From Halobellus clavatus (GTDB lineage: Archaea; Halobacteriota; Halobacteria; Halobacteriales; Haloferacaceae): DNA of 59,354 bases. The notes beneath the pieces were generated by a model. That model was not told where the DNA came from and did no database searches. It saw only the letters and a list, made by a program, of their open reading frames with translations. This document shows, piece after piece, positions 2,400 to 48,127 of this stretch. The stretch is taken from contig NZ_FNPB01000017.1 in assembly GCF_900107195.1 (NCBI RefSeq), positions 1 to 59,354 on the forward strand. Reading direction: 5' to 3'. The translations under genes and the position numbers were made by a program. The first letter of the stretch is position 1; every line of letters starts with the position of its first letter.

Positions 2400-2984
2400 A
2401 TGGTCGCGCCGGAGCCACCAGAACCTATGGCTCCGACCGACCCTCCGGACGACGCGCCGTCACGCGCGCGTGATGAGGAGGGAGTGGTCAGACCAGACGA
2501 GCTCGACTACACGGCGTCCGAACGAGTCGCCGAACTCGACGAGGGGCGCTACGTCGTCGCGACGGACGACGCTGAGTCGCCATCTGTCGACGAGGACGAG
2601 GACGCCGATACCGAGGAACGCGGGACGCTCGCGCGGCAACAGATGGGGCGGTACGTCTCGGACCACGAGGCCGACTACGGGTTCGCGCTCACTGCGGCCT
2701 TCGACGGCGACATCTCCCAGCACGAACACTTCTCCGACGACGTCGCGACGGCGTTCGGCGAGCTGGCCACGTGGTACGTCGAACAGATCGATACCGACGC
2801 GTCCGCGGACGAGGCACTCGGCATCCTGCTTCTCGCGTCGAATACGCAGGTGTCGTACCCCACAAAGGCCCTCGCGTCCATCCTCAGCGCGCACGAACTC
2901 AGTCTCGACGATTCGATAGCCGACCTCGTCAGTGCCCTCCGTGGGGACGGACTCCAGATCCCAGCTGACCAGCCCGAGGAGTGA
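2400..2984 (+). CDS. conserved haloarchaeal protein of the archaellum/chemotaxis locus
   Basis: The product is 194 residues, acidic and probably cytoplasmic. The first 75 residues are low-complexity (Pro, Asp, Glu) and the rest is a compact helical domain (about 80-185) without recognisable catalytic motifs or membrane segments. The start at 2400 is the most upstream ATG; a second ATG at 2427 is equally possible. It is transcribed towards cheY, with 69 bases between. Its place in the archaellum/che island suggests a role in motility, but I do not recognise a function. Confidence 0.75.
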   Translation: MVAPEPPEPMAPTDPPDDAPSRARDEEGVVRPDELDYTASERVAELDEGRYVVATDDAESPSVDEDEDADTEERGTLARQQMGRYVSDHEADYGFALTAAFDGDISQHEHFSDDVATAFGELATWYVEQIDTDASADEALGILLLASNTQVSYPTKALASILSAHELSLDDSIADLVSALRGDGLQIPADQPEE

Positions 2985-2996
2985 CGCGCGAAGCTG

Positions 2997-3030
2997 TATC
3001 ATCGATGATAATGGGGGCGATGCGTTTATA
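2997..3030 (+). promoter_or_regulatory. cheY promoter with TATCA-N4-TGATA dyad
   Basis: A perfect 14-bp palindrome TATCATCGATGATA lies at 2997-3010, and a TATA element (TTTATA) at 3025-3030. The ATG of cheY at 3054 is about 26 bases after the TATA centre, so the mRNA is probably leaderless. The dyad is centred about 24 bp upstream of the TATA box, matching both archaellin promoters. Confidence 0.7.
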
Positions 3031-3053
3031 CGCTGTTTCCCGGAAAACAGCCT

Positions 3054-3422
3054 ATGGCACGCAACGTACTGGTGGTCGACGACTCGGCGTTTATGCGGAA
3101 CCTGCTGAAGCAGCTGCTAGAGGACGACCACGAGGTCGTCGGCGAGGCCGAAAACGGCGTCGAGGCCGTCGAAATGTACCGCGAGCTCGATCCCGACGTG
3201 GTCACGATGGACGTGGTGATGCCGATTCGCAACGGGATCGAGGCGACCTCCGAGATCAAATCGATCGATCCCGACTCGTCGGTGATTATGTGCACTTCCG
3301 TCGGTCAGGAAGAGAAGATGCGCGAGGCGGTCGAGGCGGGCGCTGACGGGTACATCACGAAGCCGTTCCAGAAGCCGAACGTGCTGCAAGCCATCGACGA
3401 CGTCGTCGGCGTCGAAGCATGA
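3054..3422 (+). CDS. cheY: chemotaxis response regulator CheY
   Basis: This is a 122-residue single-domain receiver. All key residues are present: the acidic pair D9/D10, the phospho-acceptor D53 (in VTMDVVMP), T81 and K103 (in ITKPF). Phosphorylated by CheA, archaeal CheY signals to the archaellum motor through CheF adaptors, which are not in this window. It overlaps cheC by four bases (ATGA), and the whole che segment cheY-cheC-cheD reads in one direction from the dyad-bearing promoter. Confidence 0.97.
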   Translation: MARNVLVVDDSAFMRNLLKQLLEDDHEVVGEAENGVEAVEMYRELDPDVVTMDVVMPIRNGIEATSEIKSIDPDSSVIMCTSVGQEEKMREAVEAGADGYITKPFQKPNVLQAIDDVVGVEA

Positions 3423-4648
3423 ACCTCGACATCCAGTCGCTTCGAACGTTCAGCGATCTCGCCCACTCGGGGGCCGAAGAGGCAGCCGGATCGCTCACGG
3501 CGCTCACCGGCTTCGACGCGCGTGTCGCCGTCACCAAAATCGAGATGGCGACTCGGTCCGACGTGGAACGAGAGTTCCGCGAGGGCGACCTCGTCACGGT
3601 CCACATCGGATTCTCCGGGGCGATCGCTGGGCATACGATCCTCGCGTTCGATCGCGAGCGCGCCGTCGAACTCGTCGACGCGCTCGTTCCCGGGGCGTCC
3701 GACAATCCCGAGAGCGACCTGGCGACGAGCGGGCTCAAAGAACTGGGCAACATTATGCTCGGCGGCTTCATCGACGGGTGGGCCGACTTCCTCGGCGACG
3801 GAATCGACATCACGACGCCGACGTACGTGGAACTCGATGCGGACCGATCGCTCGAAGACGTCGTCACGCCGGAAGGCAGCAGCGACGTGGAGGCCGAGGC
3901 CGCAGAACTCGAAACCGAACTCGACACCGGACACGTTCTGGCGTTCCGGAACCACCTCGAGACGATCAACGAGGAGGCGGGGTTCTACATCTATATGCTC
4001 CCCACGCACGACTCCGTCGACACCATCGTCGACGCCGCCGGCGACAGCGGGGATACGATCCCCGTCGAGACGTTCACGTCGTTCTCCGAGATGATCACCG
4101 AGGGCGCGGGGCAGGCCTCCGAAGACCTGACCGCAATGACCGGGATCGACACCACCGTCGACGTGAGCCGACTGAGCTTCGTCCCCGTGGAGGGCGTGCC
4201 GATGGAACTGACCGACGAGGCCAGGCGGGGCGTCGTTCTCGAATTCACCGGGACACCGTCGGGGTACATCGCGATCCTGTTCGACCACGACTCGGCCGAG
4301 AGCGTCGCGGACGCGCTGATGCCCGGGATGGACTCTGATCCTGCGATGCGGCAGAGTGCCATCCAGGAGATCGGCAACATCGTCACCTCGGGGTTCCTCG
4401 ACGGCTGGGCGAACACCCTGGAGACGACGATCGAGATCTCGCCCCCGACGCACGTCGACGACATCGCGTCCGCGATCGTCGATCCGCTCGTGACCGAACT
4501 GGCGCGGACACAGGACTACGCGTTCCTCATCGATTCGGCCATCGTCACGCCCGACGAGACGTTCACGTGTGACATCTACGCGCTGCCAGACGAGCGTGAA
4601 CTGCGTGCGGCGTTCGATCAGCTCGCACCCGAACAGCAGGCTAACTGA
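3419..4648 (+). CDS. cheC: CheC-type phosphatase, two tandem CheC domains
   Basis: At 409 residues this is about twice the usual CheC length. It carries two CheC units (about 1-205 and 215-409). Each has the catalytic E-x-x-N motif: E108/N111 in KELGNIMLGGF and E317/N320 in QEIGNIVTSGF. The N-terminal E-x-x-N site found in many CheC domains is degenerate in both units. An acidic linker lies around residues 150-170. CheC dephosphorylates CheY-P and binds CheD. It is translationally coupled to cheY by a 4-base overlap and followed after 81 bases by cheD. Confidence 0.93.
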   Translation: MNLDIQSLRTFSDLAHSGAEEAAGSLTALTGFDARVAVTKIEMATRSDVEREFREGDLVTVHIGFSGAIAGHTILAFDRERAVELVDALVPGASDNPESDLATSGLKELGNIMLGGFIDGWADFLGDGIDITTPTYVELDADRSLEDVVTPEGSSDVEAEAAELETELDTGHVLAFRNHLETINEEAGFYIYMLPTHDSVDTIVDAAGDSGDTIPVETFTSFSEMITEGAGQASEDLTAMTGIDTTVDVSRLSFVPVEGVPMELTDEARRGVVLEFTGTPSGYIAILFDHDSAESVADALMPGMDSDPAMRQSAIQEIGNIVTSGFLDGWANTLETTIEISPPTHVDDIASAIVDPLVTELARTQDYAFLIDSAIVTPDETFTCDIYALPDERELRAAFDQLAPEQQAN

Positions 4649-46991: not shown

Positions 46992-47078
46992 ACTGTCACT
47001 GGCGTCGGCATCCTACATGAATGTCCGGTCCTGCGTGCCGTCGCGATCGAAGATCCGGTGCGACCGCTCCCGCTATCT

Positions 47079-47130
47079 ATCTGAACCTCGATTCAGATCG
47101 GAATGTCTATTTGAGCCGGATTTCAACTAG
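47079..47130 (+). promoter_or_regulatory. ArsR operator region: two dyads before arsR
   Basis: ATCTGAA (47079-47085) and TTCAGAT (47092-47098) form a perfect 7-bp inverted repeat with a 6-base spacer. A second imperfect dyad, CTATTTGA...TCAACTAG, spans 47107-47130 just before the ATG. Both are plausible binding sites for the autoregulating ArsR product. No other gene lies between 46992 and 47132. Confidence 0.6.
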
Positions 47131-47132
47131 GT

Positions 47133-47525
47133 ATGATGGCACCCACCGCGGACCGAATCAGACGACTGCTGACCGAGCAACTGTCCGAGTGCTGCGACGC
47201 GGACGTGGAGCGCCGTCTCGACGAGCTCGACGCCCTCGCGGAGGCGGCCTTCGCCGACGCCGACGCCCGTCCCCTCTTCGCCGTCCTCGGAAACGAGACG
47301 CGATACCGACTCGCCCGCGCGCTCGTCGCGGCCGACGACGAACGCTGCGTCTGCGAACTCGAACCGCTCGTCGACGTCAGCGAGAGCGCTGTCAGCCACG
47401 CGCTGTCGGACCTCGTCGACGTGGGACTCGCGGGCCGCCGCAAGGAGGGTAACTGGCGGTACTACACTGCGACCGACAGCGCCGAATCGCTCCTGGCGAC
47501 TGCCGACGAGGTGGTGACGGCGTGA
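47133..47525 (+). CDS. arsR: ArsR-family metalloregulator
   Basis: The 130-residue winged-helix repressor has the metal-binding motif DERCVCELEPLVDVSESAVS (CVC in the alpha-3 helix region, near residues 69-71) and the recognition helix SESAVSHALSDL. Additional Cys pair CC lies near residue 20. It is expected to release DNA on As(III) binding. It is followed by a GTGA overlap with the ACR3 remnant and then arsC. Two ATG codons (47133, 47136) are possible starts. Confidence 0.92.
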   Translation: MMAPTADRIRRLLTEQLSECCDADVERRLDELDALAEAAFADADARPLFAVLGNETRYRLARALVAADDERCVCELEPLVDVSESAVSHALSDLVDVGLAGRRKEGNWRYYTATDSAESLLATADEVVTA

Positions 47526-47608
47526 GCGACGACCTCGGCGTCCTCGACCGGTATCTCACCGTCTGGATCGGGCTCGCGATGCTCGCCGGCGTCGCCTACT
47601 CGGACTGA
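47522..47608 (+). pseudogene. ACR3 arsenite efflux permease, 28-codon N-terminal remnant
   Basis: A GTG overlapping the arsR stop opens a frame encoding DLGVLDRYLTVWIGLAMLAG followed by VAYSD and a stop. The LDRYLTxWIxLAMxxGV pattern is the start of ACR3-family permeases, which are normally about 350-400 residues. The reading frame ends nine bases before arsC starts. All remaining transmembrane helices are missing, so this looks like a large deletion that joined the ACR3 start to the end of the gene or to the arsC leader. Confidence 0.8.
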
Positions 47609-47616
47609 CCACGACA

Positions 47617-48060
47617 ATGACAGACACCACCGACTCCGACCCGACCCGCATCGCCTTCGTCTGCGTCCAGAACGCCGGCCGGTCGCAGATGGCCTACGCC
47701 TTCGCCCGACAGGAACGCGCCGACCGCGGTCTCGAAGCGCGGATCGAACTCGTGACCGGCGGCACGCGCCCCGCCGATCACGTCCACGACGTCGTCGTCG
47801 ACGCGATGGGAGATGTCGGGATCGACCTCAGCGACAGAACGCCCCGCGAGGTGACGTTCGACGAGATCCAGCGCAGCGACTACGTCGTCACGATGGGCTG
47901 TTCGGCCGACGACGTGTGTCCGGCCGGATGGGCCGGCGAGAACCGTGACTGGGACCTCGACGACCCCGACGGACGCCCGACGGACGAGGTGGCGCGCATC
48001 CGAGACGACATCCGGCAGCGCGTGGCTGCCCTCTTCGACGAACTCCACCTCGACGAGTGA
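47617..48060 (+). CDS. arsC: arsenate reductase / low-molecular-weight phosphatase
   Basis: The 147-residue LMW-PTP-fold protein has the signature C16-x5-R22 in FVCVQNAGRSQMA, like thioredoxin-coupled ArsC. A later Cys pair is found in TMGCSADDVCPAGWAGENRD, matching the usual cysteines and the acidic DP loop (WDLDDPDGR). It would reduce arsenate to arsenite. With ACR3 deleted upstream, arsenite export from this operon is missing. Confidence 0.9.
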   Translation: MTDTTDSDPTRIAFVCVQNAGRSQMAYAFARQERADRGLEARIELVTGGTRPADHVHDVVVDAMGDVGIDLSDRTPREVTFDEIQRSDYVVTMGCSADDVCPAGWAGENRDWDLDDPDGRPTDEVARIRDDIRQRVAALFDELHLDE

Positions 48061-48127
48061 CTCACACCCCCGATCCGCCCGGACACGAGGTCAGTGCCCT
48101 CGAATCGCGTGGGGCGACTGCGAAACG

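Follow-up and report, generated by a model that had tools for sequence, protein, structure and literature searches.

An ars operon of Halobellus with an apparent in-frame internal deletion of the arsenite pump gene acr3

Introduction

Haloarchaeal arsR-acr3-arsC operons are the closest counterparts of the locus described here. Such operons occur in two other Halobellus genomes (G002 and G013), in Halospeciosus flavus (L056), and in Halarchaeum (L057 and L061), and our locus shows the same gene order, ACR3 termini, and ArsC type. It also has the start/stop overlap between arsR and acr3 that is present in many members and the doubled operator that is present where this was examined. On the other hand, its acr3 frame has only 28 codons, and the locus lies between an NYN gene and dapA. 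Two-gene haloarchaeal arsR-arsC loci (for example L014, L017, L037, and L064) are similar in that arsC lies close behind arsR with no pump between them. However, these loci have no acr3 match between the two genes, and L064 has acr3 about 1 kb downstream, whereas our genome has a remnant and no acr3. In the system of PMC6205960, arsenate reduction is likewise found without ArsB or ACR3 beside it; our genome has no MIP channel. The loss of acr3 is in itself ordinary gene loss. Within the abstracts and matching passages covered by our literature search, we found no description of an ACR3 remnant of this kind.

In this study, we analyzed the window, that is, the whole stretch of 59,354 nucleotides, which is contig C9 of a 3.75-Mb Halobellus genome (G000) of 30 contigs and 99.3% completeness.

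Results

Organization of the ars locus

The order on the + strand is arsR, the 28-codon frame, and arsC, followed at about 48356 by a gene that we named dapA by eye from its sequence. This is the first gene past arsC, and the sole trace of an exporter in the operon is the ACR3 remnant. The features are as follows.

47034..48111, no strand: inserted ars segment, approximate extent; missing from the NYN-dapA interval of 10 Halobellus genomes
47077..47126, + strand: putative doubled ArsR operator just upstream of arsR; palindrome, with similar boxes in relatives
47133..47525, + strand: arsR, ArsR/SmtB metalloregulator with CVCEL motif, intact; NF033788 at 68.4 bits (cut-off 55), HTH_5
47522..47608, + strand: ACR3 remnant of 28 codons with in-frame internal deletion; TIGR00832 positions 1-22, codons in agreement with both termini of 25 intact acr3 genes
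47522..47587, + strand: ACR3 N-terminal part, codons 1-22; follows the N-terminal side of relatives, with an amino acid identity of 1.0 for the majority of codons 8-20
47588..47596, + strand: deletion joint GGCGTCGCC (Gly-Val-Ala), fitting either side in the codon comparison with relatives
47597..47608, + strand: ACR3 C-terminal part, YSD and native stop; relatives end in VAYSD or VAYTD and the stop
47617..48060, + strand: arsC, thioredoxin-type (LMWPc-fold) arsenate reductase, intact; PF01451 E 4.7e-25, PRK13530 E 3e-20

An earlier note on this DNA had described arsR and arsC as intact, which our results support. ArsR exceeds the NF033788 cut-off and carries the metal-binding CVCEL motif, as a regulator of an ars operon does. 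ArsC contains CVQNAGR, the catalytic CX5R motif, and CSADDVC, the resolving Cys pair, and is thus predicted to be an arsenate reductase; it is 74% identical to the ArsC of G002 and G013, and its gene starts 8 nt past the stop of the remnant. The dN/dS values were about 0.14-0.26 for arsR against its nearest relatives and about 0.13-0.30 for arsC against most relatives. In the arsR and arsC trees, the window genes showed no unusually long branch and no well-supported sister. Upstream of arsR, the putative operator consists of two boxes, CTATCTGAA-N6-TTCAGAT and CTATTTGAG-N5-TTTCAA, and includes, at 47079-47098, a palindrome with perfect 7-nt arms (ATCTGAA/TTCAGAT). In the 12 related haloarchaeal operons used for comparison, arsR is likewise preceded by similar paired boxes of the CTATCTGAA-N6-TTCA type.

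The segment of approximately 1.08 kb that contains these genes is inserted between the NYN gene and dapA, which are adjacent in 10 Halobellus relatives. The matches of the relatives end at query positions 538-545 (window about 47033) and restart at about 1619-1665 (window about 48112 on). Among the Halobellus species compared, only this one has an ars operon at this site. Around the insertion, we found no direct repeats or inverted ends of a mobile element of note, apart from one 7-nt inverted match. The spacer between the NYN gene and dapA is 316-412 bp in nine Halobellus genomes and 788 bp with other small frames in G013, where the insert (L187, contig C1) reads by eye as a ribbon-helix-helix/RelE-type pair. 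Judged from these sequences, insertions may have occurred at this site repeatedly.

The 28-codon frame as a remnant of acr3

The start codon of the remnant is GTG at 47522, which forms a GTGA overlap with the stop of arsR, and its stop codon is TGA at 47606-47608. In a profile search, its residues 5-26 matched positions 1-22 of the 327 positions of TIGR00832 (E 2.4e-4). The nearest ACR3s are 67-88% identical to it across its first 24-26 residues, indicating a match far above chance. The earlier note was therefore right that the ACR3 start is kept, including its GTGA coupling to arsR. It had also stated that the frame then stops, and this part needs correction, because the native C-terminus, GVAYSD, and its stop codon are kept as well. 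In a codon-by-codon comparison with 25 distinct intact acr3 genes, codons 1-22 of the remnant track the N-terminal side, and codons 26-28 with the stop track the C-terminal side. Considering that the remnant carries the native 3' end of ACR3, the change is an internal deletion and not a truncation.

With both termini recognizable in frame, we classify the 28-residue frame, as read from its sequence, as the remnant of an ACR3 gene and not as a member of the ACR3 family. A full-length ACR3 is a multi-helix permease that scores above 282.8 bits against TIGR00832, whereas the remnant scores 20.5 bits. It comprises no more than a portion of a single transmembrane helix and is unable to act as a pump. 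Complete acr3 genes of 349-350 codons lie between homologous arsR and arsC genes in G002 and G013 of the same genus and in G018, another member of the family.

The deletion joint

Codons 1-22 fit the N-terminal side of the intact genes, codons 26-28 fit the C-terminal side, and codons 23-25 (GGC GTC GCC) fit both. Accordingly, the deletion took out about 322 codons (about 966 bp) of acr3 without shifting the frame and spared both the GTGA overlap and the native stop. At the joint codons, the fit to the N-terminal side was 1.00 for G, 0.88 for V, and 0.44 for A, and that to the C-terminal side was 0.36, 0.32, and 0.44, respectively. The comparison with relatives revealed intact acr3 and placed the joint at GGC-GTC-GCC, where its assignment to either end is ambiguous. 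The ancestral position of the joint is estimated from relatives whose identity over the stub is no more than 67-88%. An exact repeat of 8-9 nt at both ends of acr3 was found in none of the 25 intact genes, and the longest stretches shared there were 0-7 nt. The Gly-Val-Ala match at the joint nevertheless suggests, at the level of sequence, a deletion across a short repeat.

Based on these results, we consider it highly probable that an arsR-acr3-arsC operon between the NYN gene and dapA lost about 966 bp of acr3 in a single in-frame deletion. The assembly is a draft of 30 contigs, and a strain with a full acr3 whose contig was misjoined in assembly or sequencing would give the same picture. 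However, the two ends share at most 8-9 nt at the joint, which is too little to cause a misjoin by a standard assembler, and the excised piece of acr3 is absent from the rest of the assembly, so that we regard such an artefact as very improbable.

The short frame among haloarchaeal genomes

The earlier note had also proposed that the stub is now a microprotein that couples the translation of arsR and arsC. The frame is open, shares GTGA with arsR, and terminates 8 nt ahead of arsC, as would suit a selected microprotein or a frame kept for coupling; intact relatives have the same overlap with arsR. When the 28-residue frame was compared with 392 haloarchaeal genomes, 234 matched, and no comparably short frame was present among the matches listed. 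Open-frame lengths also count upstream codons, and the strongest matches were therefore fetched and read directly. They were full-length ACR3s of 349-351 residues, except those of G169 and G130. The copy in G130 is cut by a contig end. The acr3 frame of G169 (L171, contig C1) is interrupted after codon 87 by a nonsense codon, TGA in place of the TGG of the relatives, and the remainder of the gene aligns; the ACR3 N-terminus has two additional matches in this genome.

It is unlikely that the remnant is a conserved microprotein, since the listed matches from the 392 genomes include no other short ACR3 frame and none of the relatives read directly keeps the short frame. The intact gene already provided the native ends and the coupling, and this inherited frame explains undisturbed translation of arsC with no need for a peptide function. 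In addition, one in three deletions would stay in frame by chance, and only one sequence shows this outcome. Accordingly, we give very little credence to a selected role of the remnant and retain the deletion of a pump gene as the explanation.

Arsenite exporters elsewhere in the genome

The absence of a pump in this operon had been stated with the proviso that ACR3 or ArsB might lie elsewhere. Searches of the 99.3%-complete genome with TIGR00832, SBF (PF01758), ArsB (PF02040), ArsP (PF03773), and MIP (PF00230) gave no match, so that no aquaglyceroporin was found either, and the control genomes were positive. These searches covered known families, and MFS or other exporter types would escape such models. 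For ArsM, the 15 matches were all weak and far under the cut-off of 263 bits, like generic methyltransferases, and the model also responded in all controls. In the genus, 16 of the 17 genomes match TIGR00832, with G000 as the sole exception: a full ACR3 above the cut-off is present in eleven, and the other five contain an ACR3-like permease that scores lower. In these five (G008, G010, G012, G016, and G001), which have no full-scoring ACR3, the permease has 336-358 residues and scores 89-107 bits against the ACR3 model. From their sequences, we treat these permeases as a divergent ACR3-like group.

ArsA-type ATPases on contigs C19 and C22 were considered as ars genes and rejected, as no ars genes adjoin either of them in the sequence that was read; both look like housekeeping ArsA/Get3 types for this reason. 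The copy on C22 adjoins, by eye, a carbon-starvation-type permease and a COG0523-like GTPase, and that on C19 has a non-ars setting.

Contig C19 also contains, at 282101-283895 (L184:2602-3084 and 2957-4396), a decayed second arsC-like frame, which has no usable start codon before its conserved part, followed by an intact MFS transporter gene. In G007, G009, and G011, copies approximately 80% identical to this transporter stand in convergent orientation to acr3; in G021 and Halostella pelagica, related copies adjoin arsC. MFS genes are also known from bacterial ars operons, where a survey found them together with ArsB or ACR3 and with an unproven role in arsenic (PMC4435449). In Halobacterium NRC-1, arsenic resistance does not involve ArsB, and an as yet unidentified arsenite exporter of a new kind has been proposed (PMC3600143). 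On these grounds, it is plausible that the C19 transporter exports arsenite, which would add to the deletion reading and make the operon a working reductase-plus-sensor unit. On the other hand, the gene has only a generic MFS_1 match, the MFS genes of the bacterial survey did not stand alone, and linkage is not function; on balance, we hold such compensation to be possible but rather unlikely.

Discussion

We propose that the deletion probably arose by slippage or recombination between short stretches coding for Gly-Val-Ala (GGCGTCGCC-like) near both ends of acr3. The operator with its two boxes, arsR, the GTGA overlap, and the spacing of 8 nt before arsC are all still present, and the operon should therefore still sense As(III) and make ArsC. 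Retained expression together with lowered arsenic tolerance would be the expected outcome of the pump deletion. As judged from the locus, the loss of the pump was likely non-polar: sensing and arsenate reduction should survive, and the operon should no longer export arsenite. A further step would be that an MFS transporter of haloarchaea, with no established link to arsenic so far, exports arsenite, made ACR3 dispensable, and so allowed its deletion while the sensor and the reductase were kept. We regard this sequence of events as improbable.

In summary, the locus represents a clean natural knock-out of acr3 that retains the reductase and the regulator, and it accordingly predicts arsenate reduction without dedicated arsenite efflux. 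The ars-linked MFS family may represent a possible alternative arsenite exporter in haloarchaea.
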